Source: Tritonibacter scottomollicae
GTDB taxonomy: Bacteria; Pseudomonadota; Alphaproteobacteria; Rhodobacterales; Rhodobacteraceae
Direction of reading: 5' to 3'
DNA length: 64,000 bases
Assembly: GCF_003003215.1 (NCBI RefSeq)
Contig: NZ_PVUF01000008.1
Coordinates: 62,001-126,000, forward strand
Shown piece by piece: positions 9,965 through 38,490 of this stretch (positions within the stretch are counted from its first letter, which is position 1; every line of letters starts with the position of its first letter). The notes below the pieces were generated by a model. The model had not been told where the DNA came from and made no database searches. It saw nothing but the letters and a program-made list of their open reading frames with translations. The position numbers and the translations under genes were made by a program.

Positions 9965-10882
9965 GTGAGCAGCGATCAGGAAAATACATCCTTCGAATGG
10001 CTGGAAGCCGAGCTGCAGGACACGCTGGACGAGGATTTCGAAATCGAATTTGCCGAGCCCATGCTGTCCATGGAGCTGCGCAAGATCTACCGCGCCCAAC
10101 ATCCGGAGATGCTTGACCGCAAGGTCTATTTCCGCAACCTGCTGCGGTTGCAGGCAGAGTTGATCAAGGTTCAGGACTGGGTGCAGCACACCGGTGCCAA
10201 GGTCTGCATCCTGTTCGAGGGCCGCGACAGTGCCGGCAAGGGCGGTGTCATCAAACGCATCACCCAGCGGCTGAACCCGCGGGTGGCCCGGGTCGTGGCG
10301 CTGCCTGCACCAAGCCGCCGCGAGCAGAGCCAGTGGTATTTCCAGCGCTACGTGCCGCATCTGCCGGCGGCGGGCGAGATCGTGTTGTTTGATCGCTCTT
10401 GGTACAACCGTGCGGGTGTCGAGCGGGTGATGGGCTTTGCCGATGACGATCAGGTCGAACAGTTCTTTCAGGACGTTCCGGAATTTGAACGCATGCTGGT
10501 CCGTTCCGGCGTCATCCTGCTGAAATACTGGTTCTCGATCACCGACGAAGAGCAGCAATTGCGATTCCTCATGCGCATCCACGATCCGATGAAACAGTGG
10601 AAACTGTCGCCGATGGATCTCGAAAGCCGCATCCGCTGGGAGCAATATACCAAGGCCAAGGAAGACATGTTCTTCCGCACCAATATCGATGAAGCACCCT
10701 GGTATATCGTCGAGGGCAACGACAAAAAGCGCGAACGCCTGAACTGTATCGAGCATTTGCTGACACGGATCCCCTATCACGACGTGCCGAGCGAGAAGGT
10801 CACCCTGCCGGACCGGGAATATAACCCAAGCTATGAACGCCGGGTGCTGCCGGACGAGCTTTACGTGCCGAAGATCTACTGA
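9965..10882 (+). CDS. ppk2: Polyphosphate kinase 2 (class I)
   Basis: Transfers phosphate between polyphosphate and nucleoside diphosphates in the cytoplasm; class I enzymes usually act on GDP/ADP and their length of about 300 aa matches these 305 aa. Walker A is GRDSAGKG at 86-93, and the Walker B/lid region is LFDRSWYNRAGVE with Asp143. The KYWFSI and RIHDP segments are also typical. The GTG at 9965 is selected by AAGGAG about 8 bases upstream. It is monocistronic and ends at a bidirectional terminator shared with rpsU. Confidence 0.95.
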   Translation: MSSDQENTSFEWLEAELQDTLDEDFEIEFAEPMLSMELRKIYRAQHPEMLDRKVYFRNLLRLQAELIKVQDWVQHTGAKVCILFEGRDSAGKGGVIKRITQRLNPRVARVVALPAPSRREQSQWYFQRYVPHLPAAGEIVLFDRSWYNRAGVERVMGFADDDQVEQFFQDVPEFERMLVRSGVILLKYWFSITDEEQQLRFLMRIHDPMKQWKLSPMDLESRIRWEQYTKAKEDMFFRTNIDEAPWYIVEGNDKKRERLNCIEHLLTRIPYHDVPSEKVTLPDREYNPSYERRVLPDELYVPKIY

Positions 10883-24238: not shown

Positions 24239-25423
24239 TCACGCGAGTGAGATCAGCAGGCTGCAAACCGCTTCCGGGTCATAGCGGTCGGGGCGGTCCC
24301 CGCGCGACAGTGGCAGTCTGTGGCATGCGACATCGTGATCTGCGACGACGCGGTCGCATTCTTTGGCAGGGGTCTTTGCATCGCAGATGACATGGCTGAG
24401 CAAGGCTGCGGTGGGGATATCGTCCCCGACGTCCCGGCGCATGGCAGCCAGCAGCGCGGAGATCTGGTCCGTCAGGCGCATGCCGTGACATTCCGGGTCA
24501 TCGCCGAGGCTGGGGATGTAAACCTTGGGCACATTGCGCGCTGCAATGGCGCGACCGACACCAGCCGGCAGCAGGTTTGAGATCACGCTGGAATAGAGAC
24601 TGCCGGGCGGGTAGCAGATCAGGTCACTGGCGGCGATCAGCTTCTGGTTCCGCTTCGGCAGGCGCGCCGTTTCGGCAGGCAGTTCGCTAGACCCATCGGA
24701 GAGAAACAGGCGGGTGATCCGGGTGCCCAGTGGCGCGCTTTCCTTACCGGTCATCTGGCGCTGACCGATGACGCGCCGTCCGTCCTCAAGCTCGGCGCCG
24801 ATCTGCAGGTTCACATCGGCAATCGGGCGCACGATGCCGCGCACATCGACCATCTTCGACATCAGGAACAGCACCGGCTCCAACACCCGGTCATTGTCGA
24901 GGTAGCCCCCCGCCAGGATCAGGTTGCCGATGCTGGCATTGCGGTAATCCAGTCCTTTGGGCGCGGCGTCCTCAAAATGGCGCAGATAGCCGACGATCAG
25001 CTGTCGCATCGGTTTCGACAGCGCCTTCAGCAGCGGGTGCGCGCAATCGAACAGGCTGGCCACCTCGCGGGCCAACTCCTTGTCGCTGACGTCCTTGGGC
25101 AACCGGTGCGAAAACAACCGGTAGATGTCGGGCTGGCCCAGTTCCGTTTCATCCGCCAGCGCCATCAGCCGACTGCGCAGATCGCCGACGGCGGGCATGC
25201 CAAAGGCCTCGCGCAGCACCTGAGAGGAGCCACCACTGTCGAACGGCGTGATCAGATGCGCCGAATTATGCGTGTAGAGCTTAAGCTTGCGGGAAATTTC
25301 GTTGAGCGCACTGCCGCCGGAAAAGAACAGCAGACGCGGCCCGAGGTTGGGGGCGGCAAGAGAGCGCGCGATGCGCAGGTTGTCGGGAACCGAGGCGTGG
25401 CGTAGAATCGAGATATCGGACAT
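24239..25423 (-). CDS. CofD/YvcK-related protein of a GAK system
   Basis: 394-aa protein of the CofD-like superfamily (2-phospho-L-lactate transferase / YvcK, UDP-sugar binding). The three nucleotide-facing motifs are visible: SGGSALN at 35-41, TPFDSGGSS at 59-67, and GDLRSRLMALAD at about 81-92; a CYPPGSLYSSV region follows. Family knowledge: TIGRFAMs describes a CofD-related branch tied to the GAK gene set, and the genes next door (ATP-grasp, HprK-related kinase B, amphi-Trp) support that assignment. It is divergent from the operon starting with the Nudix gene, leaving about 66 bp for both promoters. The substrate is unknown; a nucleotide-activated small molecule is likely. Confidence 0.85.
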   Translation of the reverse strand: MSDISILRHASVPDNLRIARSLAAPNLGPRLLFFSGGSALNEISRKLKLYTHNSAHLITPFDSGGSSQVLREAFGMPAVGDLRSRLMALADETELGQPDIYRLFSHRLPKDVSDKELAREVASLFDCAHPLLKALSKPMRQLIVGYLRHFEDAAPKGLDYRNASIGNLILAGGYLDNDRVLEPVLFLMSKMVDVRGIVRPIADVNLQIGAELEDGRRVIGQRQMTGKESAPLGTRITRLFLSDGSSELPAETARLPKRNQKLIAASDLICYPPGSLYSSVISNLLPAGVGRAIAARNVPKVYIPSLGDDPECHGMRLTDQISALLAAMRRDVGDDIPTAALLSHVICDAKTPAKECDRVVADHDVACHRLPLSRGDRPDRYDPEAVCSLLISLA

Positions 25424-25489
25424 GGTCACCCGTTCGTGCAGCTCGCGGCGACCATGCCATTCCTTTTGCCAAAACACCACAGGCTTGCC

Positions 25490-25960
25490 ATGCCCACTCG
25501 CCAACCAGAGTTCCTAGAGGTCATCCGCATCGCCGCAAGGGCAGTGATCTGGCGTGAGGGGCGCGTTCTGGTGCAGGTGAAACAGGCCGCCGACGGGCGC
25601 ATCTACCTCGGCCTGCCGGGTGGTCGGATGGAGCCTGGCGAGACCCTCGCCGAGGCGACCCGGCGCGAGGCGCTGGAAGAAGTCGGCGCCGAGGTGCGGG
25701 TGGGGCCGCTGCTGCAAGTGCTGGAAACCTACAGGAAACGCCCCGAGGGGCTGCGCCATCAGGTGGAACATCTGTTCGTCTGTCATGTGGATGACACATA
25801 TGTCCCCCAGATGGGTCAGCATCCGGATTCAAAGCAGATCGCGGTGCGGTGGGCCGACCCAGTTGTCGAAGCCGCGCTGTTTGACCCGCCCTATGGTGCG
25901 CTGCTAACGGACAAGACCGCAGAGACGTACCAAGGGGTCGTGCAAGATGAAACTGCCTGA
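25490..25960 (+). CDS. Nudix hydrolase in the GAK operon
   Basis: A 156-aa pyrophosphohydrolase. The Nudix box is complete (GGRMEPGETLAEATRREALEEVG at about 42-64, cited by its ends GGRMEPGET and RREALEEVG), giving the metal-binding glutamates. Starts at GTG 25436, ATG 25454 and ATG 25490 are in frame; none has a strong ribosome-binding site, and 25490 is preferred because the domain begins directly after it and space for a divergent promoter remains. It overlaps the next gene by 14 bases. The substrate may be a nucleoside diphosphate derivative produced or used by the GAK enzymes. Confidence 0.85.
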   Translation: MPTRQPEFLEVIRIAARAVIWREGRVLVQVKQAADGRIYLGLPGGRMEPGETLAEATRREALEEVGAEVRVGPLLQVLETYRKRPEGLRHQVEHLFVCHVDDTYVPQMGQHPDSKQIAVRWADPVVEAALFDPPYGALLTDKTAETYQGVVQDETA

Positions 25961-27581
25961 GGCAGCACAGGAAAACCTGGCGTTTCTGCTGGCGGAGCTG
26001 GACGGTCAGATGTCCAACCTGCTGGCTTACTTCAAGGAGCCTTCGGCCGATGGCGCGCAGAAGGTGGTCCTGCGGGCGGGCTATGCCCATAACCTGTGGT
26101 CGCGGGTGCAAGCCGCCTGTCGCAGCGCCACGACCCGTGGCAAGTCTTCGCAGTCCAGGCGCTTGCTGCTGCAGAATGTCGACACCATTGCCCGCAACCT
26201 TGACCAGCTGTCGCGCCTGTCCCGTATGGCGCTGTTGCATGCCGAGGATGTGCAGCGCGTGAAGCTCCTGCGTCCCGAGGCCTACCGCAAGGTGCTGAGG
26301 CAGGTGGCCTGTGCGTTGCACGAGGTGCTGCCGGCGCTGGAGGCCAATGACAGCAAGAGCGCTATTGCGATTGGTCAGAACAAGGCCGAGGTTGATGACT
26401 TCTACGACCGGATGTTTCGCACTTATACCCGCGACATGCGCGACACCCGCCATACCGAGGATCTGGCCAATGCGCTCTTGGTGCTTAACGAGGTGCGCCG
26501 CATGGGCGAAAGCCTGCAGGGCATCTCGGAGGCGCTGCTGTCGATCTCGATCGGGCAGAATGTGCAGTTCGAACGCTATTTCACCCTGCGCAGTGTGTTG
26601 TCCGGCAGCAGGGTGGCTGATGACGACCTGACGCTGAAGCCGCTGGCCGAAACCCGGTCCGGCAGCGCCATCTCGTCGGTCAGCACCCGCGACAAGGCGG
26701 GCGATCTGATCGACGCGGTCTTCAAGGACGGCGAAAAAAGCAAGGTCAAGGAAGAGCGCGCCGGGGTCAAAAGCTGGCACGCGATCTATCCCGGTCTTGC
26801 GCCGCGCATCCTGTCCTATGAAAAACGCGGCCAGTCGGCGGCGCTGTTGATCGAGCATCTGTCGGGCTACACGTTTGAACATGCGCTGTTGAACGAAGGC
26901 GACGCAACTTTGGCGGCGGCGCAGAGCGCGCTGCACAAGACACTCACCGATATCTGGACCCGGACCCAGTCCGATGATCCGGCAGAGATGCAGGCGATGA
27001 AGCAGCTCTCGGCCCGGATGAAGGACGTCTACCGTGTCCACCCGGAGTTTGACACCGGCGCGGCCCGCATTCAGGGGGTGAAACAGCCCGCCTTTGCGGA
27101 ATTGCTGAAGGCGGCGGAGAAGCGCGAAACACAGGTCGCGGCACCTTTCTCGGTCTATATCCACGGGGATTTCAACCTCGATAATGTGATCTATGATCCC
27201 GCAGAGCGAAAGATCCGGTTTATTGATCTGCATCGCTCGCGCTACATGGACTATGTGCAGGATGTCTCTGTCTTCATGGTGTCGAACTACCGTCTGCAGG
27301 TGCAGGACGGCCCGGTGCGGGCCCGCATCGGCGACACTGCGCTGGGGCTGCATCGGATGGCGGCCAGATTCGCCCGGGCGCGCAAGGACACCACGTTTGA
27401 ATACCGGTTGGCACTGGGGCTGGCGCGCAGCTTTGCCTCGTCCACCCGGTTTGTATTCGACAAGGAGCACGCCCGGCGCATGTTCCTGCGTGCACGTTAT
27501 CTGCTGGACTTGGCCCTCGCCGTGCCCGAGGGGCGCGAAGCCCGACTGAAATTGCCGATCAAGGAGCTGTTTGGTGACTGA
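25947..27581 (+). CDS. PhoU-like / aminoglycoside-phosphotransferase fusion protein
   Basis: A 544-aa protein with two parts. Residues about 10-220 are all-helical with PhoU-like repeats (for example QNVDTIARNLDQLSRLSRM and TEDLANALLVLNEVRRMGE). Residues about 260-540 are a kinase of the APH/choline-kinase fold: HGDFNLDNVIYD at about 406-417 holds the catalytic Asp and Asn, and FIDLHRSRYMDY at about 425-436 holds the metal-binding Asp of the DxD-like motif. No other architecture of this kind is known to me outside GAK-type loci. It overlaps its neighbours by 14 and 8 bases. It may phosphorylate a small molecule or protein, with the PhoU part sensing phosphate status; this is inference. Confidence 0.8.
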   Translation: MKLPEAAQENLAFLLAELDGQMSNLLAYFKEPSADGAQKVVLRAGYAHNLWSRVQAACRSATTRGKSSQSRRLLLQNVDTIARNLDQLSRLSRMALLHAEDVQRVKLLRPEAYRKVLRQVACALHEVLPALEANDSKSAIAIGQNKAEVDDFYDRMFRTYTRDMRDTRHTEDLANALLVLNEVRRMGESLQGISEALLSISIGQNVQFERYFTLRSVLSGSRVADDDLTLKPLAETRSGSAISSVSTRDKAGDLIDAVFKDGEKSKVKEERAGVKSWHAIYPGLAPRILSYEKRGQSAALLIEHLSGYTFEHALLNEGDATLAAAQSALHKTLTDIWTRTQSDDPAEMQAMKQLSARMKDVYRVHPEFDTGAARIQGVKQPAFAELLKAAEKRETQVAAPFSVYIHGDFNLDNVIYDPAERKIRFIDLHRSRYMDYVQDVSVFMVSNYRLQVQDGPVRARIGDTALGLHRMAARFARARKDTTFEYRLALGLARSFASSTRFVFDKEHARRMFLRARYLLDLALAVPEGREARLKLPIKELFGD

Positions 27582-28461
27582 ACTGAAAATCGGGGTGATT
27601 GGCATCCCGGGAAAATGGTCGACGGAGGCCATCGCCGACGCCCTGGAGGCGCGGACCGGGTTTCGCCTGGTGATCGACATGGCCGAAGTCTCGCTGGATC
27701 TCGGCACCGGCGCGCTGGTCTATTGCGGGCAGGACCTGTGCCAGCTTGACGGGCTGGTGATCAAGAAGATCTCGGAGGTCTACAGCTACCACGCGCTGGA
27801 TCGGCTGGAGATGCTGCGCGTGGCCGAGGCCAAGGGCGTGAAAATCTACAGCCGTCCTGAGGCGATCCTGCGGCTGATGGACCGGTTGGCCTGCACGGTG
27901 ACGCTGGCCAATGCCGCGATCCCGATGCCGCCGACCACCATCACCGAAGATGAAACGGCTGCGCTGCAGGCGGTTCTGGCCTATGGCAGTGCGGTGTTCA
28001 AGCCGCTGTTCTCCACCAAGGCGCGCGGCATGTGCGTGATTTCCGCCAGCGATGCGGATGCGGCAGGGCGGATCGCCGCCTTCAAGGCGGACAACCCGGT
28101 GATGTATGTTCAGGCCAAGCGAGAGCTGTCGGGCCAGGATCTTGGCATGGTTTTTCTGGGCGGCGACTATGTCTGCACCTATGCGCGGGTGAAACAGGAC
28201 GAGACCAGCTGGAACACCACCATCCTGTCGGGCGGCAAATACGAGGCGTTTGAGCCTGACGCCGCGTTGATCGACCTTGGTCGTCGGGCGCAGGCGCCCT
28301 TTGGCCTGACCTTCACCACCGTGGATGTGGCCCTGACCGACAGCGGCCCGATCGTCTTCGAAGTCTCCGCTTTTGGCGGCTATCGCGGCGTCAAGGAAGG
28401 CTGCGGCATTGATGCGGCTGCGCGGGTGGCTGATCACGTGGTGGCGGGAGTATCTGCATGA
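27574..28461 (+). CDS. ATP-grasp enzyme of a GAK system
   Basis: A 295-aa ATP-grasp ligase related to RimK and tetrahydromethanopterin ligases. The central ATP-binding elements are visible: SRPEAILRLMDRL, VFKPLFSTKARGM (phosphate-contacting lysine and loop) and the C-terminal metal site IVFEVSAFGGYRG, where Glu and a following residue replace the usual E-x-N. AAGGAG at 27561 is seven bases before the GTG at 27574, so that codon is the start and it lies inside the end of the previous gene. ATP-grasp members join an amino acid or sugar acid to a carboxylate, so a peptide-like modification of the amphi-Trp protein or of a small molecule is possible. Confidence 0.85.
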   Translation: MTELKIGVIGIPGKWSTEAIADALEARTGFRLVIDMAEVSLDLGTGALVYCGQDLCQLDGLVIKKISEVYSYHALDRLEMLRVAEAKGVKIYSRPEAILRLMDRLACTVTLANAAIPMPPTTITEDETAALQAVLAYGSAVFKPLFSTKARGMCVISASDADAAGRIAAFKADNPVMYVQAKRELSGQDLGMVFLGGDYVCTYARVKQDETSWNTTILSGGKYEAFEPDAALIDLGRRAQAPFGLTFTTVDVALTDSGPIVFEVSAFGGYRGVKEGCGIDAAARVADHVVAGVSA

Positions 28462-29546
28462 GCCTGACAACGGTCTCCGATATCGCGGCGCAACTGGAGC
28501 TCAGCGGCGCGCAGGCCGCAGAGCCGCTGGGGTTGCGCGTCGGGCCGGTCTCGGTCTGCATTCTCTGCGAAGGCCCGCTGCGCGACGTGTTGGCCGACTA
28601 CTTCAAGGAAGCCACGGATGTGGTCGCCAACCCGGACATCACCGTGCATGTGGTCGAAGGGCAGACCCTTGATCGCGCCCCGGCCTGGCAGGATTGGGCG
28701 CGCGAGCCGGGCAAGACCGGGCGCAAGGATGCGATCCACGAACTGACAGACGGGCGGCTGATCCACAAGCGCCGCACCGGCGTGACCTTCCTGCAGTCCA
28801 TTGACCTTCTGGTGGCCTTTGGCCCGGTGACGGAAAATGCCAATCAAGTGGTGAATTTCGTCAACACGCAGGTGCTGAACAACCGTCAGCGTGCCGGCTG
28901 GCAGATTTGCCACGCCGCCGCCGTCAGCAAGGGCGGGCGCACATTGGCCATTGCCGGATTGTCGGGCGGCGGTAAATCCACCTCGATCCTGCGCATGATG
29001 GATATCCCCGGCATGTCGTTCATGACCAATGACCGGTTGTTGGTGCAGGCGGACGGCCTGGGGGCGCAGGGGCTCGGCATTCCGAAACATCCGCGCATCA
29101 ACCCGGGCACCATTCTTGGCAATGATCGTCTGCACGACATGCTCAGCGCGCAGCGCAAAGCGGAGCTTCGGGCCATGCCAGCGGATGACCTTTGGCAGCT
29201 GGAGGAAAAATACGACCTGTTCATTTCCGACATATATGGCGCGGGGCGTATCACATATGCTGCGCCGCTGACGGATTTCTGGGTGTTGAACTGGCAGCGC
29301 GACGAGGAACAGGTGACCATGATCGAGGAGGTCGATCTAGCGGCGCGCCCGGATTTGCTGGCCGCGATCATGAAGAGTGCGGGCCCGTTCTACCAGTTCC
29401 CCGATGGCAGCTTCCTGCGTGACACGGCGGCCCCCGATCCGGAGGGCTATCTTGCTGCATTGCGCAATGTGCGGGTGCAGGAGGTGACAGGACGGCTGGA
29501 TTTCGATGCCATCGCCTATCTTGGGCGCGAGCTGTTTGATGACTGA
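28458..29546 (+). CDS. HprK-related kinase B of a GAK system
   Basis: A 362-aa P-loop kinase related to the catalytic domain of HPr kinase/phosphorylase. Walker A is GLSGGGKST at about 168-176, and a downstream FMTNDRLLV takes the place of the HprK LVADD-type catalytic strand. An N-terminal domain of ~160 residues differs from the HprK receiver-like domain. The start ATG overlaps the ATP-grasp stop (ATGA). The classical PTS target HPr is not encoded here, so the substrate is expected to be another protein or metabolite of this cluster. Confidence 0.85.
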   Translation: MSLTTVSDIAAQLELSGAQAAEPLGLRVGPVSVCILCEGPLRDVLADYFKEATDVVANPDITVHVVEGQTLDRAPAWQDWAREPGKTGRKDAIHELTDGRLIHKRRTGVTFLQSIDLLVAFGPVTENANQVVNFVNTQVLNNRQRAGWQICHAAAVSKGGRTLAIAGLSGGGKSTSILRMMDIPGMSFMTNDRLLVQADGLGAQGLGIPKHPRINPGTILGNDRLHDMLSAQRKAELRAMPADDLWQLEEKYDLFISDIYGAGRITYAAPLTDFWVLNWQRDEEQVTMIEEVDLAARPDLLAAIMKSAGPFYQFPDGSFLRDTAAPDPEGYLAALRNVRVQEVTGRLDFDAIAYLGRELFDD

Positions 29547-30237
29547 CGGCGCACGCTACATCGCATTGATCCGCCACGGGGCCTATCACCAGAAACCCGG
29601 CGCGCCCTCCGCGTTGCAGCCCTTTCCCCTGACTGAAGACGGGGTGGCGCAGGCGAAGGCCTGCGGCGAAGCGCTGAACGCGGCTCTGATACGGGAGAAC
29701 TGGACCCTTTCGCCGGTGATCCATGCCTCGCATCAGCTCCGCGCGTGGCAGACAGCGGAGGGGATTGCTGGCGTCTTGCGCCAGGCGGGGCACGCCGTGT
29801 CAGACATCGCCGAGACGCCCCGTTTAGCTGAGCGCAGCGTCGGTGCGCTGGCGAATCTGACGACTACAGAGATCGAGACCCTGCTGCAGCAGGACCCCCG
29901 CTATGATACCCCCCCGGAGGGATGGAAGTCCGACAGCCACTACCGTTTGCCATTTCAGGACGCGGAGTCGCTGTTGGAGGCGGGCGCGCGTGTGGCCAGC
30001 CATCTGACCGATGTGGCCGAGGCCGCCGCGGCGGAGAGCCTGACGCTCTGTGTTGGGCACGGGGCGTCCTTTCGCCATGCAGCACATCACCTCGGTCTGC
30101 TGACCTTGGGCGATATTCCGCAACTCTCGATGCATCACGCGCAGCCGTTACTGCTCTGTTACATGGGGGATGGTAGATGGTCGCACTTTGGCGGTGCCTG
30201 GAAGCAGCGGCAGAGACAGGAGACCCATCTGGACTAG
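29539..30237 (+). CDS. Histidine phosphatase-superfamily protein in the GAK operon
   Basis: 232-aa phosphatase of the SixA/phosphoglycerate-mutase type. The catalytic RHG is at 12-14 (His13), and the second histidine is in the CVGHGASF motif. Start ATG 29539 overlaps the kinase stop by eight bases; an upstream in-frame ATG at 29506 would lie inside the kinase gene. In this context it is a candidate reverse enzyme for the kinases of the operon. It overlaps the next gene by 61 bases if that gene begins at 30177. Confidence 0.87.
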   Translation: MTDGARYIALIRHGAYHQKPGAPSALQPFPLTEDGVAQAKACGEALNAALIRENWTLSPVIHASHQLRAWQTAEGIAGVLRQAGHAVSDIAETPRLAERSVGALANLTTTEIETLLQQDPRYDTPPEGWKSDSHYRLPFQDAESLLEAGARVASHLTDVAEAAAAESLTLCVGHGASFRHAAHHLGLLTLGDIPQLSMHHAQPLLLCYMGDGRWSHFGGAWKQRQRQETHLD

Positions 30238-31589
30238 GGACAGACGCCTTGCAGAGCTGCCACACCGCCCGTTCCCCGCTTTTGCCGCCCATTCATGACC
30301 CCGTTGGCGAATTGTCCGACCTGCCGCAGGAGCTGGAACGCTGGTGCGTGACCGCGGCGCATTCCGGCTGTGCCCGTCCCGAAAGCGCCAATCACCTGCA
30401 GGCCTGTCTGGAACGCGCTGAGGCCCATGGTGGCTGGCGCTGGCCTGCCAAGCCGGTGGTGTTTCTCTCCGACACCCATGCCGATGCCGAGGGGTTCTTG
30501 CGCTCCCTTGTGGCCGCCGGTCTGATCCGGCGCGGACGGGCGGAGCCGGGCGGGTTCAGTCTGACCGAATTTGGCCAGAGTGCCACCATCCTGATCGGCG
30601 GTGATTGTCTCGACAAGGGGCCGAGCGATCTGGACATGCTGGATGCGCTGGGCACGCTGATGGCCAAGGGGCCGGATCTGCGCATCCTGGCGGGCAACCA
30701 CGACCTGCGCCTGCGGCTGGCTGTCGCCGCCCTGCACGAGACACCCACGGCGCTGACCGAACATCTTCTGGTGCGCATGGGGCGCAAGATCATCCCGCTG
30801 CTGCGCGAGGTTCATGACCGCTACGTGTGCGATGCGGATCTGGCCGACCTGCCGGATGAGGCCAGCTGCCGCGCGCGCCTGCACCCCGGCCGCGACTGGG
30901 CCGAACGGTTCTCGGTTGCCGCCGCGCGTCATTTGAATGGAGCCGCCGTTGCGTCCGAAGTCGAGAAGCTGGCAAAGAAGGCCGCACAATTTGATGCGGA
31001 GCTTGCCCGGGCGGGGCTGACCTCGCGGATGGTGCTGGCCGCAGCGCTCAAATGCCGCGAGGTGTTTTTCACGTCCGGGGGCGACTACGCCTGGTTCTAC
31101 GAGTCGATGGATGTGGTCTGCCAGCTGGGCTCGCTGCTGTTTGTGCACGCCGGGATCGACGACAGCATGTGCGAGTTGCTGTCCGAGGCAGGCGCTGCTG
31201 GCATCAACGCCCGCTACAGGGCGGAGCAGGGCGCGCACCCCTTTGCTTTCTATTTCGGACCACTGGCCAATCTGGTGCGGACAAAATATCGCGCCTCTGA
31301 TGCGGCGCTGACACAGCAGGGCGTCGCCGTGCTGCATGGGCTTGGCATCCATATGGTGGTGCAGGGGCATGTGAACAATCAAAGCGGCCAGCGGATACTG
31401 GCCAAACAGGGGCTGCTGCACCTTGAAGGGGATGTGACGCTGGACCGGGCGTCGCGTCGGTTGGAAGGGCTCTCCGGCATCGGGGCGGGGGCCACCTTGA
31501 TCTTTCCCAGCGGGGATGTCATCGGGTTGAGCACAGATTACCCGCGCGCCAAGCATTTTGCGCCGGAGCGGCAATTCCTTCCGCGTTAG
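30177..31589 (+). CDS. Calcineurin-like metallophosphoesterase in the GAK operon
   Basis: A 470-aa metallophosphoesterase. All five metal motifs are seen: SDTHAD (Asp99, His101), GGDCLDKG, GNHD (173-176), VHAGID and QGH. A helical insertion of about 130 residues lies between GNHD and VHAGID. Start is uncertain: ATG 30177 overlaps the previous gene by 61 bases, and a TTG at 30249 with purines upstream would remove the overlap. Together with the histidine phosphatase it makes two phosphate-removing activities in one operon with two kinases. Confidence 0.8.
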   Translation: MVALWRCLEAAAETGDPSGLGTDALQSCHTARSPLLPPIHDPVGELSDLPQELERWCVTAAHSGCARPESANHLQACLERAEAHGGWRWPAKPVVFLSDTHADAEGFLRSLVAAGLIRRGRAEPGGFSLTEFGQSATILIGGDCLDKGPSDLDMLDALGTLMAKGPDLRILAGNHDLRLRLAVAALHETPTALTEHLLVRMGRKIIPLLREVHDRYVCDADLADLPDEASCRARLHPGRDWAERFSVAAARHLNGAAVASEVEKLAKKAAQFDAELARAGLTSRMVLAAALKCREVFFTSGGDYAWFYESMDVVCQLGSLLFVHAGIDDSMCELLSEAGAAGINARYRAEQGAHPFAFYFGPLANLVRTKYRASDAALTQQGVAVLHGLGIHMVVQGHVNNQSGQRILAKQGLLHLEGDVTLDRASRRLEGLSGIGAGATLIFPSGDVIGLSTDYPRAKHFAPERQFLPR

Positions 31590-31626
31590 AGCCGCACTCA
31601 CGCAGCTGAGATCAGGACGGGCAGTG

Positions 31627-31920
31627 ATGGCCAAGGACGACAAGACAGGCGACGACGCGCGATTTCGTCACGACTCCCTGCAGGATCGCAAGACGATCAA
31701 GGGGTTGGTGGATGCCATCGGCAAAGGGCTGGCCAAGGGCGAGCTGAGCCTGAGCGATGACGAGGGTGAAATCGTGCTGAACCCCGAAGGGTTGCTGACC
31801 CTGCGCATCCGGGCCGAGCGCAACGACGGCCAATGCAAGGTCGATTTTCGCGTCAGCTGGACCGAGCGTGACGATGATCTTCAGCAAAAACCTGCGCCAA
31901 AGGTCAAAGCGCGCGGCTAG
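31627..31920 (+). CDS. Amphi-Trp domain protein of a GAK system
   Basis: A 97-aa protein with a charged N-terminal helix (about 12-38) followed by a short beta sheet ending in FRVSW, where alternating hydrophobic residues (LTLRIRAERN, KVDFRVSW) form an amphipathic sheet with the signature Trp. This is the amphi-Trp family, the small partner protein in GAK systems and the likely target of the ATP-grasp or kinase. The start ATG at 31627 lies 37 bases after the phosphoesterase. The tail is lysine-rich. Confidence 0.85.
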   Translation: MAKDDKTGDDARFRHDSLQDRKTIKGLVDAIGKGLAKGELSLSDDEGEIVLNPEGLLTLRIRAERNDGQCKVDFRVSWTERDDDLQQKPAPKVKARG

Positions 31921-32128: not shown

Positions 32129-32764
32129 TCAGCCCGGCCTGTGCCGGTCTGGGTGCGCGGCGTCAAAGGCCGGATGCGCGGCGCAGCTCTGCTCAATGCG
32201 CAACAGGCGCGGGAAGGGCGCGAGATCCACCTCCCAGCGGCGCGCATTGTAGAGCTGCGGCATCAGGCAGATATCGGCAAGGCTTGGTGACGCTCCGGTG
32301 CAGAACGGCGCATCCTCCCAGCGCTCCAGCAGCGCCGCAAAGGCCTGGAGCCCGGGGCCGATGAAGTGATGCATCCAGCCCGCCATGTCGAGGGCGCCGC
32401 CACTTTGCGAGACGCCGAAGCGGGCGACCGAGAGGTTGCAGACCGGATGCAGATCCATCGCAATGCTCTGCGCCAAGGCCTCCACATGGGCGCGGGCGAC
32501 GGGATCCTGCGGCCTCAACCCAAGGCCCCGCGTGGCGTCCAGATAGGTGAGGCAGGCCAGCGACTGGGTGAACCGCTGCCCGTCGATATCAAGCACCGGC
32601 ACCAGCCCCTGCGGGTTGCGCGCCAGATGATTTGCCGTGCGATGATCTCCGGCCACCAGGTCGACGGAGCGGCTCTCATAGGAGATGCCTGCGAGGTTGA
32701 GCGCGATGCGCAACCGGTAGCTGGCCGAGGAGCGCCAATAGTCCCAGAGCACGGTGTCAGCCAT
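32129..32764 (-). CDS. maiA: Maleylacetoacetate isomerase
   Basis: Zeta-class glutathione transferase of 211 aa that isomerises maleylacetoacetate to fumarylacetoacetate with glutathione as cofactor. The catalytic WRSSASYRLRIALNL segment holds the essential Ser pair near the N terminus, and GAEPS/PSLADICLMPQ follows in the second domain. It is last in a minus-strand series with hmgA and fahA, and its start overlaps the stop of the DUF2783 gene by eight bases, so it is translationally coupled to that small gene. Confidence 0.93.
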   Translation of the reverse strand: MADTVLWDYWRSSASYRLRIALNLAGISYESRSVDLVAGDHRTANHLARNPQGLVPVLDIDGQRFTQSLACLTYLDATRGLGLRPQDPVARAHVEALAQSIAMDLHPVCNLSVARFGVSQSGGALDMAGWMHHFIGPGLQAFAALLERWEDAPFCTGASPSLADICLMPQLYNARRWEVDLAPFPRLLRIEQSCAAHPAFDAAHPDRHRPG

Positions 32765-32963
32765 CGATCAGACCCGCTTTGGCCTGTGTTAGAGCCTGTT
32801 TCAGGATCTCCGCCTCCCCTATGTGGTTGGCCAGGATCAGGATCAGGCGCGCATTGAGGGCGTCGCTTTGGGCCTTGCTCAGCCCCTCATGCGCAGACAG
32901 CAGCATTGCGTAAGTGTCATCCGGGGTCGCAAGGTTTGCGGTCAGCGTCAGTGTCTCGGGCAT
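32757..32963 (-). CDS. DUF2783 small protein, possible hydroxylase coupling protein
   Basis: 68-aa protein matching DUF2783, with the conserved DDTYAMLLSAHEGLS and NARLILILANHIG segments. The ATG at 32963 follows GGAGTAA; it sits four bases after the flavoprotein gene. I recall that in Pseudomonas putida the 3-hydroxyphenylacetate 6-hydroxylase has a large flavoprotein (MhaA) and a tiny coupling protein (MhaB) encoded beside homogentisate genes; size, order and context fit that pair here, but this has not been checked by alignment. Confidence 0.75.
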   Translation of the reverse strand: MPETLTLTANLATPDDTYAMLLSAHEGLSKAQSDALNARLILILANHIGEAEILKQALTQAKAGLIDG

Positions 32964-32967
32964 CGGG

Positions 32968-34581
32968 TTACTCCTTGCCGATGGTGCGGCGCAAGGCGGC
33001 GCGGATCTTGGCATCGTCAAACGCAGGCATGCGGGTTGCCACGTGTTGATCGGGCCGGATCAGGTAGATGGCAGAGGCGCCCGTGCCCAGATAGCGGTCG
33101 CGCAGCGCGGTGGTGGTTGCATCATCGGTTGAGATCGAGAGTCTGGAGATCGTCACGCCCGCCTCCTCCAGCGTCTCCGGTGCCTCTGCGTTGATCGCCA
33201 GCAGGGTGAAGGTGTTGCCAAGCTGCGGCAGCAGGAAGCCGTCCTCGATCGGGGCATCCGGGCAGGGCGCACCGGGGCGTGTGCGGGCCGGGCCGCCGGG
33301 CAGATGATCGTCGGAGTTGAGCGGAGAGCCATCGTAGATCGAGGGCAGCGACAGGCGTCCGGAATTCACCAGCGGGCGGGCAAACCCGTGGTGCTCCGAC
33401 AGGTCCAGCACCGCGTCGCGGAAGATACGCGACATCTCCGATTTCGGCGTGATGAAATCGGTTGAGCGCGAGGAGTTCAGGATGTTTTCCTCTGCCGCCG
33501 CAATCCGTTCCGTGTCGTAACTGTCCAGCAGGCTGTCGTCCGCCAAGCCCTCCAGCACCAGTTTCAATTTCCACATCAGATTGTCGGTGTCCTGCAGGCC
33601 GGAGTTTGCCCCGCGTGCCCCAAAGGGTGAGACCTGATGGGCGCTGTCGCCGGCAAAGATCACCCGACCGTGACGGAACCTTTCCATGCGGCGGCATTGG
33701 AACGTGTAGATGGAGACCCACTCCAACTCGAACTGCACGTCGTCGCCCAGCATTGCTTTGAGCCGGGGGATGACATTCTCGGGCTTCTTCTCCTCCGCCT
33801 TGTCGATATCCCAGCCGAGCTGCAGGTCAATGCGCCAGACCCCGTCGGGCTGTTTGTGCAGAAGTGCCGATTGCCCCTTGTTGAAGGGCGGGTCGAACCA
33901 GAACCAGCGTTCGGTCGGAAAATCAGCCTCCATTGTGACATCGGCGATCAGGAAATTGTCCTCAAACACCCGGCCCACAAAATCCAGCCCCATTTGTGCG
34001 CGGATCGGAGAGCCGGCGCCGTCGCAGGCGATCAGCCATTCGGCCTCAAGCGTGTAGGCACCATCCGGGGTGTCGACGGTGAGCGTGGCGTGGCTGCCGT
34101 GATCCGTCACACCCGCGACCCGGTTCTTGCCGCGGATTTCGATGGGCGCGCCTGCGGCCTGCAGGCTGCGCACACGGTCCACGAGGTAGTCCTCGATATA
34201 GTATTGCTGCAGGTTCACGAAGGCGGGGAACTGGTGACCGTCCTCGGGCAGCAGGTTGAAGTCATAGACCTTGCGATCCCCGAAGAAGACTTTGCCCATG
34301 TTCCATTCGACGCCCTTGTCGGCCATGGCGTGCCCGACGCCAAGCCGATCCGCGATCTCCAATGTGCGTTTGGCAAAGCAGATGGCGCGGGAGCCGGAGC
34401 TGACCTTGTCGTTGTCATCCAGGACCAGAACCGGCACGCCAGACTGCGCAAGGTCGATGGCAGCGGCGAGGCCGACCGGCCCTGCGCCGACCACGACGAC
34501 CCTGTGGCGTGCGGGCGGGGTCGCATCCTGATCCGCATGGCGTGCATAGGGGTACAGCGGCACCTCAAAAATCTTGTTCAT
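32968..34581 (-). CDS. FAD-dependent aromatic hydroxylase in the homogentisate cluster
   Basis: A 537-aa single-component-like flavin hydroxylase of the MhpA/UbiH type. The FAD-binding dinucleotide fold starts with VVVGAGPVGLAAAIDLA at about 29-45, the DG motif is in LIACDGAGSPIR, and the second FAD motif is GRVIFAGDSAHQVSPFGARG. The start ATG 34581 follows GAGGGAGG; the upstream in-frame reading is rejected. It lies with hmgA, fahA and maiA, so it probably makes homogentisate or a close analogue from a hydroxyphenylacetate, with the DUF2783 protein as partner. Confidence 0.8.
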   Translation of the reverse strand: MNKIFEVPLYPYARHADQDATPPARHRVVVVGAGPVGLAAAIDLAQSGVPVLVLDDNDKVSSGSRAICFAKRTLEIADRLGVGHAMADKGVEWNMGKVFFGDRKVYDFNLLPEDGHQFPAFVNLQQYYIEDYLVDRVRSLQAAGAPIEIRGKNRVAGVTDHGSHATLTVDTPDGAYTLEAEWLIACDGAGSPIRAQMGLDFVGRVFEDNFLIADVTMEADFPTERWFWFDPPFNKGQSALLHKQPDGVWRIDLQLGWDIDKAEEKKPENVIPRLKAMLGDDVQFELEWVSIYTFQCRRMERFRHGRVIFAGDSAHQVSPFGARGANSGLQDTDNLMWKLKLVLEGLADDSLLDSYDTERIAAAEENILNSSRSTDFITPKSEMSRIFRDAVLDLSEHHGFARPLVNSGRLSLPSIYDGSPLNSDDHLPGGPARTRPGAPCPDAPIEDGFLLPQLGNTFTLLAINAEAPETLEEAGVTISRLSISTDDATTTALRDRYLGTGASAIYLIRPDQHVATRMPAFDDAKIRAALRRTIGKE

Positions 34582-34701
34582 CCGGTTTCCTCCCTCCGGC
34601 AAACAGCTTCTGGTCCGACCCCGCGTTACGGGGTCGGTGGCAAGGACGGACAACCGTCGTTGCATATAAGATAGGCTCTAAAGGGTGGTTTAGAGCCGAA
34701 T

Positions 34702-35652
34702 TCAGGCCTGCAGGGCTTCCCACATCTCCAGATCGCGCTGTGCGGTCCAGATGCGGGGTGTGTCGATGCCGCGGGCCTCGTCATAGGCGCGGGCGACGTT
34801 GAAGGGCAGGCAATGTTCGTAAATCGCGTAGTCCTTGAACTTCGGATCACAGGCCTCACGCACCGCGTCCCAGGCCTCTTTCAGCGACCCGCCACGGGCT
34901 GCGACCTTTGCCGCCGGGCGATAGGTGCTGTCGACAAAGTCGCGGGTGTTCTCGATGGCAGCGTTGACCATCTCCTTGCCCACGAGAGCGTCGCCGCGAC
35001 CGGGGGCGATGGCGTCCACATCATAGGATTTGATGTTGTCGAGCGTGTTGCCCCAATCGCCAAAATGCCCGTCACCGCAATAGCAGGCAGAGTGGTATTC
35101 GACGATGTCGCCGGTGAACATGACGTTTTGATCCGGCACATGGATCACCGCATCACCGGCGGTATGGGCGCGACCCAGATGCTTGATGTCGACGCGGCGA
35201 TTGCCGAGGTAGACGGTCATGCTGTCGGAGAAAGTGGTGGTGGGCCAAGTGAGGCCTGGAATGCTCTCATGGCCCTCAAACAGGCGCGGGAAGCGCTGGA
35301 ATTCGCTGTCCCAGTCTTCCTGTCCGCGTTCCACCACCATGGCGCGGGCGGTGTCGGACATGATGATGTTCTCGGCGCCAAAGGCCGAGGCCCCCAGTAC
35401 GCGCACTGCGTGATAGTGGGTCAGCACCACATGAGAGATCGGCTTGTCTGTGACCGAGCGCACGCAGTCGATGACCTTGTTGGCAAGGCGCGGGGTCGCC
35501 TGCGCCTCGACGATCATGACGCTGTCGTCGCCAATGATGACGCCGGAATTTGGATCTCCTTCGGCGGTGAAGGCATAAAGGCCTTCGCCCACCTCGGTGA
35601 AGGAGATGTTCTTTTCGCTCATGTCGCCCTGGGATGCGAAGGCTTTGGCCAT
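34702..35652 (-). CDS. MBL-fold metallo-hydrolase-like protein
   Basis: Metallo-beta-lactamase-fold protein of 316 aa located between the flavin hydroxylase and fahA. The metal motif is altered: THYHAVR carries His79 and His81, but the Asp and His of the canonical H-x-H-x-D-H are Val83 and Arg84. His163 (GRAHTAGD) and Asp182 (TGDIVEYHS) remain. The lost residues are ligands of the second metal, so it may be mononuclear or non-hydrolytic. The start ATG 35652 is preceded by AAGGA. Its role in aromatic catabolism is not known. Confidence 0.82.
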   Translation of the reverse strand: MAKAFASQGDMSEKNISFTEVGEGLYAFTAEGDPNSGVIIGDDSVMIVEAQATPRLANKVIDCVRSVTDKPISHVVLTHYHAVRVLGASAFGAENIIMSDTARAMVVERGQEDWDSEFQRFPRLFEGHESIPGLTWPTTTFSDSMTVYLGNRRVDIKHLGRAHTAGDAVIHVPDQNVMFTGDIVEYHSACYCGDGHFGDWGNTLDNIKSYDVDAIAPGRGDALVGKEMVNAAIENTRDFVDSTYRPAAKVAARGGSLKEAWDAVREACDPKFKDYAIYEHCLPFNVARAYDEARGIDTPRIWTAQRDLEMWEALQA

Positions 35653-35734
35653 AGGGTTGTGTCCTTTTTGTCTGTTCCGCCGAAGGTCAGGTTGGGGTGC
35701 CTCCGGCGGAGGTATTTGAGAAAAGATGAAGATC

Positions 35735-36991
35735 CTAGCGTGCGTAAGGATCGCTGAGCGCGGGCAATACAGTGCCGGTGCAGTCGCCGAAACCGATGGT
35801 ATAGCCATCGCCCTTCGCCGCGCCCTTCAGGGTCAGCGTATCGCCATCCTCGATGAAGCTGCGGCTCTCGCCTGTGGGCAGGGTTAACGGCTCCTTGCCG
35901 CCCCAGCTGAGCTCCAGGAGCGAGCCGCGTTGGTCCTTTTCAGGGCCTGAAATGGTTCCGGAGCCGAGGAGGTCGCCCGGGGTCATCGGGCAGCCGGAGG
36001 TGGTGTGATGCGCCAGTTGCTGCGCGGCGGAATAGTACATTTCCTTGTAGTTGGTGCGCGCGATGGTGGCGCCCTCGCCGCCTTCGGGCCGCAGGGTGAC
36101 CTCCAGTTCGATGTCATACAGCATCGGGCCGCAGTCTTTCAGATGGTCCAGAAGCTCTACCTCGCGGGAGGGCGTGTCGCAGCGGAACGGTTCGAGCGCC
36201 GCCTTGGTGACGATCCAAGGGCTAATGGAGGTGGCGGTCGCCTTGGCTTGGAACGGGCCCAGCGGCTGGTATTCCCAAGCCTGGATGTCGCGGGCCGACC
36301 AATCGTTCAGCAGCACATAGCCAAAGATGTTGTCATCGGCTTCCTGTACCGTGATCGGACCCTCGGAGGGGGTGCCGACAAGCGCGCCCATCTCCAGTTC
36401 GATGTCGAAGCGCGCGCAGGGTGCCCAGCGAGGGGCTGCATCATTCGGCCCCTTCAGTTGCCCCCAGGGGCGGCGCACATCGGTGCCGGAGACCATGACC
36501 GACGAGGCACGGCCGTTATAACCGATCGGGATATGCAGCCAGTTCGGCGGCAACGCATTCTCGGCGCCGCGGAACATGGTGCCCACATTGGTGGCGTGGT
36601 GACGGCCAGCATAGAAATCGGTGTATTCCGACACGATCACCGGCATGTGCAGCTCTGCATCAGCCATGGGAACAAGGCAGGGCTCCACCTTCTTCTGCTC
36701 TTCGGCACCATCCTGCAGCAAAGCGATCAGGCGATTGCGCAGGGCGGTCCAGAGTGCCGGGCCTTCTTCCATGATCTCGTTCCAGAACGGCATCTCGAAC
36801 ATCGGTTCGTCACCCAGATCCACCAGCCCTGCGGCCTCGGCTGCTTGCAAATCAAGGATCATGTCGCCGATGGCCACGCCGCAGCGCGGATCGGTGCCTG
36901 CGGTGGAAAACACGCCGTAAGGCAAGTTGTTGAGCGGGAAGGGGTGATCGGCGGAATTGGCCGAGGTGACCCAGGATTTTTTCAAAGGCAT
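35735..36991 (-). CDS. fahA: Fumarylacetoacetase
   Basis: Last enzyme of homogentisate degradation: hydrolyses fumarylacetoacetate to fumarate and acetoacetate. The 418 aa fit the eukaryotic-type FAH, with an N-terminal SH3-like domain and the C-terminal catalytic domain. Motifs YTDFYAGRHHATNVGTMFR and FGYVLLNDWSARDIQAWEYQPLGPF are quoted by their ends YTDFYAG and DWSARDIQ. Two ATGs (36997 and 36991) are six bases apart; AAGGA lies directly before 36997 and six bases from 36991, so 36991 is preferred. Confidence 0.96.
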   Translation of the reverse strand: MPLKKSWVTSANSADHPFPLNNLPYGVFSTAGTDPRCGVAIGDMILDLQAAEAAGLVDLGDEPMFEMPFWNEIMEEGPALWTALRNRLIALLQDGAEEQKKVEPCLVPMADAELHMPVIVSEYTDFYAGRHHATNVGTMFRGAENALPPNWLHIPIGYNGRASSVMVSGTDVRRPWGQLKGPNDAAPRWAPCARFDIELEMGALVGTPSEGPITVQEADDNIFGYVLLNDWSARDIQAWEYQPLGPFQAKATATSISPWIVTKAALEPFRCDTPSREVELLDHLKDCGPMLYDIELEVTLRPEGGEGATIARTNYKEMYYSAAQQLAHHTTSGCPMTPGDLLGSGTISGPEKDQRGSLLELSWGGKEPLTLPTGESRSFIEDGDTLTLKGAAKGDGYTIGFGDCTGTVLPALSDPYAR

Positions 36992-37098
36992 GCGCATTCC
37001 TTGTGGCGGTGAGGGCTCTGTCGGCCCTGCTTCATCTTTTCACAAATATCTCGGGGGTGAATGCGGCCCGTCAGGGCCGCAGAGGGGGCAGCGCCCCG

Positions 37099-38454
37099 TC
37101 ACTTCTTGCCCGGGGTGCCGTCGAATTTCTTCTCCAGCGAGGTCCAGCAGTCGATGTATTCATCCTGCAACGGTGCTTCCTTGGCGGCAAACTCCGTCAG
37201 ATGCTGCGGGAAGCGGGTCTCGAACATGAAGGACATGGTGTTCTCCAGCTTCTCCGGTCCGAGGTTGGAATTCGACGCGCCTTCAAACGCATCTTTGTCC
37301 GGCCCATGCGGCAGCATCATGTTGTGGAGGCTCACGCCACCGGGCACAAACCCCTGTGGTTTGGCATCATACTGGCCGTAGATATTGCCCATCAGCTCCG
37401 ACATGATGTTCTTGTGATACCACGGCGGGCGGAAGGTGTTCTCGGCCACCATCCAGCGTTCGCGGAACAGCACAAAGTCGATATTCGCGGTGCCCGGCTG
37501 GCCCGACGGCGCGGTCAGCACGGTAAAGATCGAGGGGTCCGGATGGTCGAACAGGATGGCGCCGACCGGGCAGTAGGTGCGCAGATCGTATTTGTAAGGC
37601 GCGTAATTGCCGTGCCAGGCCACCACATCCAGCGGGCTCTGGTTGATCTTGGTCTCATGGAACTGGCCACACCATTTCACAGTCAGGGTCGAGGGCACCT
37701 CACGGTCCTCATAGGCAGCCACCGGCGCCTTGAAGTCGCGCGGGTTGGCCATGCAGTTGGCGCCGATCGGGCCACGGCCCGGCAGGTCGAACTTTTGGCC
37801 GTAGTTTTCGCAGACGAACCCGCGCGCCGGCCCCTCCAGCACCTCGACCCGATAGACCAGACCGCGCGGGATGATGGCGATCTCCTTGGGCTCCACATCG
37901 ATGATACCCAGTTCGGTGGCAAAGCGCAGCCGGCCCTCTTGTGGCACCACCAGCAGCTCGGAATCGGCGGAGAAGAAATAGGCGTCCTGCATCGATTCGG
38001 TGACCAAATAGACATGGGTGGCCATGCCGACCTGGGTGTTCACATCCCCCGCCGTGGTCATGCTGCGCATGCCGGTGAGCCAGGTCAGCCCCTCGTCCGT
38101 ATGCGGCACCGGATCCCAGCGGTATTGACCAAGCGAGATCACATCCTCGGGAATATGCGGCGCGCTCTTCCAGTAGGGCAGGTCGATCTTGCTGTAGCGG
38201 TGCGAATGCTTGACGCTGGGACGAATGCGATAGCACCAGGTGCGCTCCGGGCGCTCGGCGGTAAAGGCGGTGCCGGAGAGCTGCTCGCCATAGAGACCAT
38301 ATTCGCATTTCTGCGGGCTGTTCATCCCTTGCGGCAGCGCGCCGGGCAGGGCCTCTGTTTCAAAATCATTGCCAAATCCGGGCATGTAGCCCTCTGTGGT
38401 GCCCTGGTTCGACGGGGCCTGAATCATCTGGTCCGGCAGTGCGTGACGGGTCAT
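37099..38454 (-). CDS. hmgA: Homogentisate 1,2-dioxygenase
   Basis: Non-haem iron ring-cleaving dioxygenase that turns homogentisate into maleylacetoacetate. The 451 aa match the family length. The iron ligands are in [13 protein letters not shown] (His and Glu) and in MLPHGPD (His). The ATG at 38454 has AGGAGG nine bases upstream, so the earlier TTG is rejected. It is the first gene of the minus-strand cluster with fahA, the MBL protein, the hydroxylase, DUF2783 and maiA. It is divergent from a MarR regulator with a dyad between. Confidence 0.97.
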
Positions 38455-38490
38455 TGCGGCCAACCTCCTCTTGCATTTCCTTCTCGGTAA

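Follow-up and report, generated by a model that had tools for sequence, protein, structure and literature searches.

What does a locus do that brings together three enzymes that use ATP, three that take off phosphate, one CofD-like protein and one very small protein? These eight genes lie at positions 24239-31920 of the window, the 64,000-nucleotide stretch of DNA from the marine bacterium Tritonibacter scottomollicae that was analysed, and all eight open reading frames are present where an initial annotation had put them. A complete GAK set had been claimed, and this was borne out: all four NCBIfam GAK families score above their cut-offs in the order claimed, namely TIGR04357 CofD_rel_GAK (470 bits against a cut-off of 340), TIGR04356 grasp_GAK (437 against 300), TIGR04355 HprK_rel_B (310 against 200) and TIGR04354 amphi-Trp (62 against 31). 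The Pfam families above cut-off at the locus are NUDIX, APH, PhoU, His_Phos_1 and CofD. GAK has been known so far as family names in databases, and our literature searches found no paper on the system. We propose, tentatively and with somewhat less than even confidence, that GAK may be a phosphoryl-transfer cycle in which a phosphate-rich compound is made, removed and read by the amphi-Trp protein.

The CofD-like gene is divergent from the other seven, with a gap of 66 bases (25424-25489) to the start of the Nudix gene if ATG starts are used. The overlaps of 14, 8, 4, 8 and 61 bases described initially match starts at 25947, 27574, 28458, 29539 and 30177. The last of these holds only with the ATG at 30177; a TTG at 30249, preceded by AGGGAC, would instead leave an 11-base gap between the histidine phosphatase and metallophosphoesterase (MPE) genes, and the median gap between these two genes in 66 relatives is 11.5 bases (longest ORFs). 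The further claim that six of the seven genes overlap their neighbour does not extend to the amphi-Trp gene, whose most likely start, the ATG at 31627, lies 37 bases past the MPE stop codon (a TTG at 31558 is less likely).

A scan of a genome collection gave 380 places that encode a relative of the GAK ATP-grasp protein. The best 80 of these, chosen by ATP-grasp and biased to the seed clade, formed our locus sample; nearly all stand under names of Proteobacteria that we take to be marine or salt-loving. Counts over 73 loci leave out seven with short flanks (L042, L056, L092, L094, L115, L116 and L121), and nine of the 80 share their contig, judged by its length, with a second sample, of 61 relatives. 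The ATP-grasp family was searched in these 61 relatives and in 22 chosen of 398 genomes of the phylum. PhoU-APH, the kinase and the amphi-Trp protein are each encoded in 73/73 loci, ATP-grasp itself being there by construction, having picked the loci. Among the 61 relatives, the four genes occur in an identical set of 10 genomes; if genomes are independent, two such sets would coincide with a chance of 1e-11. Because PhoU-APH is always found with the other three in both samples, we count it as the fourth core member. The genes from PhoU-APH to amphi-Trp, where present, keep their order and strand in 72/73 loci, the sole exception having a split PhoU-APH, and this conservation is more than chance. 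The initial annotation had staked its GAK assignment on the extra genes accompanying the core, and they do (PhoU-APH in 73/73 loci, the histidine phosphatase and MPE in 66 each and Nudix in 50), so the assignment stands.

The histidine phosphatase and MPE genes are absent together from the same 7/73 loci, with the core retained, and are thus dispensable; their joint absence is what one would expect if both acted in a single branch of phosphate removal. Remnants are left in six of the seven loci, that of MPE in L063 being short (21 residues, E 2e-5), and L071 is without any. On the tree, built with FastTree only, the loss corresponds to four changes, which may include a regain.

In the proposed cycle, it is these two enzymes and the Nudix hydrolase, joined in relatives by a SixA-Nudix protein, that would strip phosphates from the compound again. 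The histidine phosphatase (branch 1; 29539-30237, plus strand; PF00300, 75 bits) keeps its RH(G) and GHG motifs, and its nearest solved structures are phosphoglycerate mutases (PGM/BPGM). The ApaH-like MPE (30177-31589, plus strand) has conserved metal and phosphate motifs (DxHAD, GGDxxDKG, GNHD, HAG and GH); its profile match to ApaH is weak (E 0.007), and it scores 20.5 with Pfam Metallophos, just below the cut-off of 21.5. The optional Nudix hydrolase (25490-25960, plus strand, or from a GTG at 25436 in a longer form; PF00293, 57 bits) has an intact Nudix box, whose residues are invariant across 19 rows, and its nearest solved relatives are a mixed set. A role in anti-phage defence was considered and rejected: searched against PADLOC with E values up to 1, the eight proteins gave a single match, that of Nudix (residues 29-97 of 174) to the candidate PDC-S07, at 36.8 bits.

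The SixA-Nudix protein, of which there is none in this window, is encoded in 28/80 loci and resembles Ap4A hydrolase and diphosphoinositol polyphosphate phosphohydrolases (DIPP). This count is a recount by profile; neighbour genes had been called by codon usage, and the caller missed some SixA-Nudix genes (L050, L052, L065 and L094 among them). Full-length SixA-Nudix proteins are also found in 2/51 operon-negative relatives. By eye, the gene adjoins urease genes in L160 and L162. It is present in 6/7 loci that lost the phosphatase pair against 18/66 others (Fisher p 0.004); as a substitute for the pair it found no support on the tree, where four independent pairs are too few to test.

The compound would be built by the three ATP-using enzymes, all of them core members. 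The PhoU-APH fusion kinase (25947-27581, plus strand; PF01636, 42 bits; PF01895, 25.9 bits) has a PhoU-like part at about residues 18-228, which perhaps puts synthesis under phosphate control, and an APH kinase part at about 258-471; it retains the invariants HGDFNxDN and IDLHR, and its solved relatives are PhoU (4q25) and APH. For the RimK-like ATP-grasp protein (27574-28461, plus strand, with an alternative TTG start at 27571), the nearest solved structure is RimK (4iwx/5zct), and the nearest solved relatives are amino-acid ligases. Aligned with four proteins above the RimK cut-off, it keeps Lys144, Asp252 and Glu264, and NTT, SGG and EVS-AFGG replace their RSN, RGG (QGG in one of the four) and EVN-SSPG. 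Its scores are below cut-off for rimK_fam (78.9 against 143.4), RimK (54.8 against 331) and MptN (118.8 against 350). HprK-related kinase B (28458-29546, plus strand; Walker A SGGGKST) matches neither a Pfam family nor an HprK model with E values up to 1. Its AlphaFold model (pLDDT 94.8) matches PEPCK (3e-7) and HprK/P (1.4e-5) in Foldseek, and the protein is thus predicted to have the PEPCK/HprK fold. Seven basic residues (R82, K86, K90, R100, K104, K210 and R213) are at least 95% conserved over 82 rows, which would suit an anionic substrate.

The 97-residue amphi-Trp protein (31627-31920, plus strand; Pfam score 24.5, below the cut-off of 27) would bind or carry the product through its FxHxS region. 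This motif reads FRHDSLQ here (31663-31683, plus strand; His15 and Ser17) and is of GAK type: His is kept in 80/81 GAK rows, one having Tyr, and Ser in 81/81, and the motif is absent from 8/8 above-cut-off amphi-Trp proteins of genomes without a grasp match. A ninth match, L196, is below cut-off and reads FRHDG. Two GAK loci beyond these rows deviate and read FRHEAL (L159) and FKYEAL (L158), both without Ser and one also without His. The model (pLDDT 85) has one helix followed by four strands and no match among solved structures (best Foldseek E 0.98). The order of elements in HPr is different; an HPr-like carrier was rejected by fold, there being no structural match and HPr being absent among the 50 matches listed of 113.

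The amphi-Trp protein could itself be the substrate, a small acceptor like HPr for HprK or LysW for LysX, with the HprK-fold kinase phosphorylating His15 or Ser17, the ATP-grasp protein ligating a group, or both, and the phosphatases reversing the step. Among the matches of the kinase model is an HprK/P-HPr complex. RimK and LysX, to which the ATP-grasp protein is akin, have proteins as substrates, and the GAK-type motif and strict co-occurrence with the core would fit as well. Nevertheless, we find this possibility rather doubtful, given the loci that lack Ser or His, the Asn-Asp of kinase B at the position of the HprK Asp pair, the predicted fold of amphi-Trp, and the mostly small-molecule substrates of APH, Nudix and ApaH relatives.

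A CofD-type donor step had been suggested for the system, and as an obligatory step it does not agree with the distribution of the CofD/YvcK-like protein (24239-25423, minus strand, from an ATG at 25423, or from a TTG at 25504 in a longer form; PF01933, 131 bits). It occurs without the operon in 8/18 CofD-positive relatives, and in seven grasp-positive genomes of the phylum sample a search for CofD_GAK with an E limit of 1e-20 gave no match; the protein and the operon are separable in both directions. Its nearest solved structures are of UPF0052/YvcK type (2ppv and 2o2z), as are all of the solved relatives found. We know of no such set of kinases and phosphatases in F420 synthesis. These observations, together with scores far below cut-off for both MptN and CofF, make it very improbable that GAK is an F420-like cofactor pathway in which the CofD-like protein is the transferase for a phospho group donated by a nucleotide conjugate, a RimK/CofF-like ATP-grasp enzyme adds amino acids and amphi-Trp is the carrier, despite the CofD Pfam domain and the ATP-grasp matches to MptN (119 bits) and CofF (22 bits). 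In the phosphoryl-transfer cycle, CofD would be an auxiliary YvcK-type protein.

CHAD is described, in an excerpt of one source, as a polyphosphate-binding domain (PMC6537752). A CHAD gene lies in the 10-kb flanks of 6/80 loci against about 0.5 expected (loci treated as independent), and CHAD is found in 10/10 operon-positive and 21/51 operon-negative relatives. Co-occurrence of CHAD with the operon was not upheld within the genus (8/8 against 7/10, p 0.22, not significant). A PPK2 gene is present in the window at 9965-10882, and in G005, G010 and G015 the contig with the operon carries one on the operon's upstream side; since PPK2 is found in 45/61 relatives, GAK-positive or not, we regard its proximity as ordinary shared gene order. 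These neighbours would agree with a module serving inorganic polyphosphate only, its PhoU-APH and other kinases charging or using the polymer and its phosphatases trimming it. We consider this improbable in view of the general presence of PPK2, the small number of loci with CHAD nearby, and the core proteins, none of which matched a polyphosphate enzyme family of NCBIfam or Pfam.

We infer a phosphate-rich compound because the hydrolases resemble ApaH (MPE, weakly), Ap4A hydrolase and DIPP (SixA-Nudix) and phosphoglycerate mutases (histidine phosphatase); the CHAD neighbours, the four-gene core, the altered RimK signature and the Arg and Lys residues of the kinase also favour it. Against it we count the amino-acid ligases nearest to ATP-grasp, the weak MPE-ApaH match and the mixed Nudix relatives, as well as the CHAD result within the genus, the lack of tree support for linking SixA-Nudix with phosphatase loss, and the SixA-Nudix genes of operon-negative relatives and beside urease genes. 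Now that four core genes, a dispensable pair of phosphatases and an added SixA-Nudix component have been defined, the function is directly testable: loss of the pair, as happened in some lineages, should trap the product.

Comparison with known systems places GAK near several of them. Kinase B shares with HprK/P-HPr and the PEPCK fold family its predicted fold, the Walker A motif and a His (His152) ahead of it; HprK carries an Asp pair where kinase B reads Asn191-Asp192, and the amphi-Trp model is unlike the HPr fold. The profile match of the ATP-grasp protein to the alpha-L-glutamate ligases RimK, LysX and MptN is nearly full-length, but it stays below the cut-offs of all three, with signature residues altered. 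YvcK/GlmR has the solved structures closest to the CofD-like protein, which differs by an insert of about 45 residues and scores 111.9 bits with TIGR01826, below the cut-off of 196. Of the YvcK residues given for UDP-sugar in an excerpted account (Thr13, Asn217, Tyr264 and Arg300, B. halodurans numbering; PMC5482804), Thr13 and Asn217 align with Ser, and the other two fell outside the alignable part. In Streptomyces, a ppk-pptA(CHAD)-Nudix operon is known in which the polyphosphate-binding CHAD protein adjoins a Nudix hydrolase; the excerpted account mentions neither an ATP-grasp or amphi-Trp protein nor an HprK-like kinase (PMC8003754). An ATP-grasp kinase, a histidine phosphatase and a Nudix enzyme are likewise among the parts of the eukaryotic inositol-pyrophosphate cycle, with PPIP5K (PMC11836120, in excerpt) and DIPP. 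By analogy, GAK might be a bacterial polyphosphorylated second-messenger system, its ATP-grasp protein acting as a kinase, not a ligase, beside two kinases of other folds, with hydrolases of Nudix, histidine and ApaH-like type and a small FxHxS protein as its dedicated reader. We think this unlikely. Of the solved structures related to the ATP-grasp protein, 11 at E up to 0.001, none is PPIP5K, and DIPP is resembled by the SixA-Nudix fusion of relatives, which this window lacks. The locus matches the NCBIfam GAK set (TIGR04354-TIGR04357), which carries no stated function and whose four named families are all adjacent here; to it we add PhoU-APH as a further core gene, the histidine phosphatase-MPE pair, Nudix and SixA-Nudix as accessories here or in relatives, and a CofD-like protein that can be separated from the rest.

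The GAK locus (window positions 24239-31920, ORFs of the window) consists of a minus-strand CofD-like gene and, divergent from it, seven plus-strand genes in the order Nudix, PhoU-APH, ATP-grasp, HprK-related kinase B, HisPhos (histidine phosphatase), MPE (metallophosphoesterase) and amphi-Trp. The initial annotation placed all four named GAK families here, and each of the four proteins indeed exceeds its curated NCBIfam cut-off. In Pfam, the Nudix, APH, PhoU and His_Phos_1 domains of the window proteins score above the cut-off, and MPE and amphi-Trp fall just below it. As a gene set, it belongs to a kind that has a name but so far no explanation. The gene overlaps first reported (14, 8, 4, 8 and 61 bases) are correct for the chosen starts; the 61-base one is probably an effect of start choice, because an alternative TTG start of MPE at 30249, preceded by AGGGAC, gives an 11-base gap from HisPhos and the median gap between these genes in relatives is 11.5 bases. 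About 13 kb upstream of the CofD-like gene lies a polyphosphate kinase 2 gene (9965-10882, plus strand; TIGR03707, 364 bits against a cut-off of 301.8), and in genomes G005, G010 and G015 such a gene likewise shares a contig with the operon, on its upstream side. Downstream, at 32129-38463, maleylacetoacetate isomerase (TIGR01262, 230 bits) and, by eye, flavin monooxygenase, fumarylacetoacetase and homogentisate dioxygenase form an ordinary aromatic catabolism cluster.

The ATP-grasp alignment was scanned against a one-genome-per-species collection, giving 380 relatives, and the best 80 were fetched. Gene presence was counted in the 73 loci with full flanks, all chosen by ATP-grasp. PhoU-APH, the kinase and amphi-Trp are each present in 73/73 of these loci, and HisPhos (66), MPE (66), Nudix (50) and CofD (46) are optional; the genes from PhoU-APH to amphi-Trp, where present, have identical order and strand in 72. 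In a sample of 61 genomes, made up of 60 relatives and the source genome of the window, ATP-grasp (over cut-off), amphi-Trp, the kinase and PhoU-APH are each found in one and the same set of 10. PhoU-APH is therefore as much a core member as the three name-giving genes, which we take to be grasp, amphipathic protein and kinase. It retains the HGDFNxDN and IDLHR motifs. In the Lamellibrachia barhami symbiont record (L108), unlike its close kin, PhoU-APH is broken into two ORFs and SixA-Nudix, a fusion protein described below, is two partial ORFs over overlapping model parts, reflecting decay, duplication or assembly error.

HisPhos and MPE are both missing from the same 7 of the 73 loci. A remnant of the MPE gene end precedes amphi-Trp in six of these seven (short in L063), and L068 retains HisPhos remnants as well. 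On the FastTree tree of three core enzymes the pair requires four changes, which may include a regain, and this is the number forced by well supported branches. Decay thus strikes both phosphatase genes together and spares the ATP-using core, the pattern to be expected if the two serve a single removal branch. The pair is not strictly inseparable, since L158, a locus outside the 80, has MPE and HisPhos was not found there.

An added component, SixA-Nudix, joins a SixA-type histidine phosphatase to a Nudix domain and was observed in 28 of the 80 loci. In 14 of them (all gammaproteobacterial or tubeworm-symbiont records) its gene stands within the operon, between kinase and HisPhos; in 12 it lies on the minus strand, either past CofD or immediately upstream of the operon; and in two it is on the plus strand further upstream. 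In Methylophaga sp. SAT92 (L097:11984-12930) it is in two ORFs, covering model positions 2-99 and 104-319. Nearest to its Nudix part are Ap4A hydrolases and human diphosphoinositol polyphosphate phosphohydrolases. SixA-Nudix is not restricted to GAK; full-length matches occur in 5 of the 61 relatives, three of them with the operon, and it adjoins urease genes (by eye) in L160 and L162. CHAD genes were near 6 of the 80 loci, compared with about 0.5 expected if loci are independent; CHAD domains bind polyphosphate (PMC6537752).

CofD is separable from the operon. Among the 61 relatives, 18 have a CofD_GAK above the cut-off: every one of the 10 operon carriers, and 8 genomes that lack the operon. 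In operon-less G012 it is flanked by a SixA-Nudix gene and rpoC (the latter by eye). CofD_GAK and SixA-Nudix also adjoin each other beside rpoC (by eye) at L161:8344-10562, in a genome that lacks the GAK operon. In the part of the 398-genome phylum sample in which grasp was sought, seven grasp-positive genomes (G416, G183, G245, G163, G139, G175 and G107) gave no CofD_GAK match at E up to 1e-20, and five others (G000, G074, G109, G201 and G217) have both. The system is sparse, with CofD_GAK over cut-off in 6/398 phylum-sample genomes. Tritonibacter-labelled records fall in three separate tree places (L042, L061 and L107), and CofD is on a different contig in 2 of the 10 operon-bearing relatives (G024 and G016); these observations are most simply explained by horizontal transfer of the operon. 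The GAK proteins of L074, titled Enemella evansiae (Actinomycetota), grouped with roseobacters in the tree, and that assembly is probably mislabelled or contaminated.

The amphi-Trp protein was modeled (pLDDT 85) as a helix followed by four strands and a short helix at the end, with no good match among solved structures (best E 0.98). Its helix is preceded by FxHxS, with Ser in all 81 alignment rows and His in 80 of them; five rows differing just after Ser were read by eye. The motif is absent from 8/8 over-cut-off amphi-Trp proteins of genomes without an ATP-grasp match, although two of these genomes have a completeness of no more than 71 and 80%. L196, a ninth match that scores below the cut-off, reads FRHDG and so has the His but lacks the Ser. 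FxHxS marks a putative GAK-type site, which would either be modified or bind a ligand. Two more GAK loci deviate (L159, FRHEAL; L158, FKYEAL), which counts against an essential phosphoserine. We tentatively favor a cycle, possible though short of probable, in which the three ATP-using enzymes would build a phosphate-rich small compound, amphi-Trp would read it, and the hydrolases would be the off branch. The main rival reading, in which amphi-Trp itself is the modified acceptor, appears somewhat less likely to us. TIGR04354 also detects, where the GAK-type profile does not, a second amphi-Trp subtype outside GAK (71-86 aa; L190, L191, L192, L194 and L195), with an RDIEK-like start followed by FV.KLRRLAD.

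No literature was found on the GAK system, amphi-Trp, or the family accessions and names, in a search outside which most subscription papers lie. The ATP-grasp papers among the matches listed contain neither GAK term, and an Enterococcus proteomics paper among the matches mentions a 'CofD-like protein' (PMC4411035). Added here are PhoU-APH as core, a separable CofD, the co-lost phosphatase pair, the SixA-Nudix component, the GAK-type motif and a changed ATP-grasp site.

The confident model of HprK-related kinase B (pLDDT 94.8) matches the structures of PEPCK (E 3e-7) and of HprK/P with HPr (E 1.4e-5). The window CofD matches YvcK-type structures. Four UDP-sugar residues were tested in B. subtilis YvcK (PMC5482804); two of them align with Ser in the window CofD and the other two could not be aligned, so that UDP-sugar binding by CofD is not supported. 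For the GAK ATP-grasp protein, the nearest PDB proteins are RimK and other amino-acid ligases, and its site was compared with four proteins above the RimK cut-off. Lys144, Asp252 and Glu264 are common to both, whereas the GAK protein has NTT for RSN, SGG for RGG (QGG in one) and EVS-AFGG for EVN-SSPG, with Ser266 of EVS kept in at least 95% of 83 alignment rows. Given these changes from RimK, its reaction need not be amino-acid ligation.
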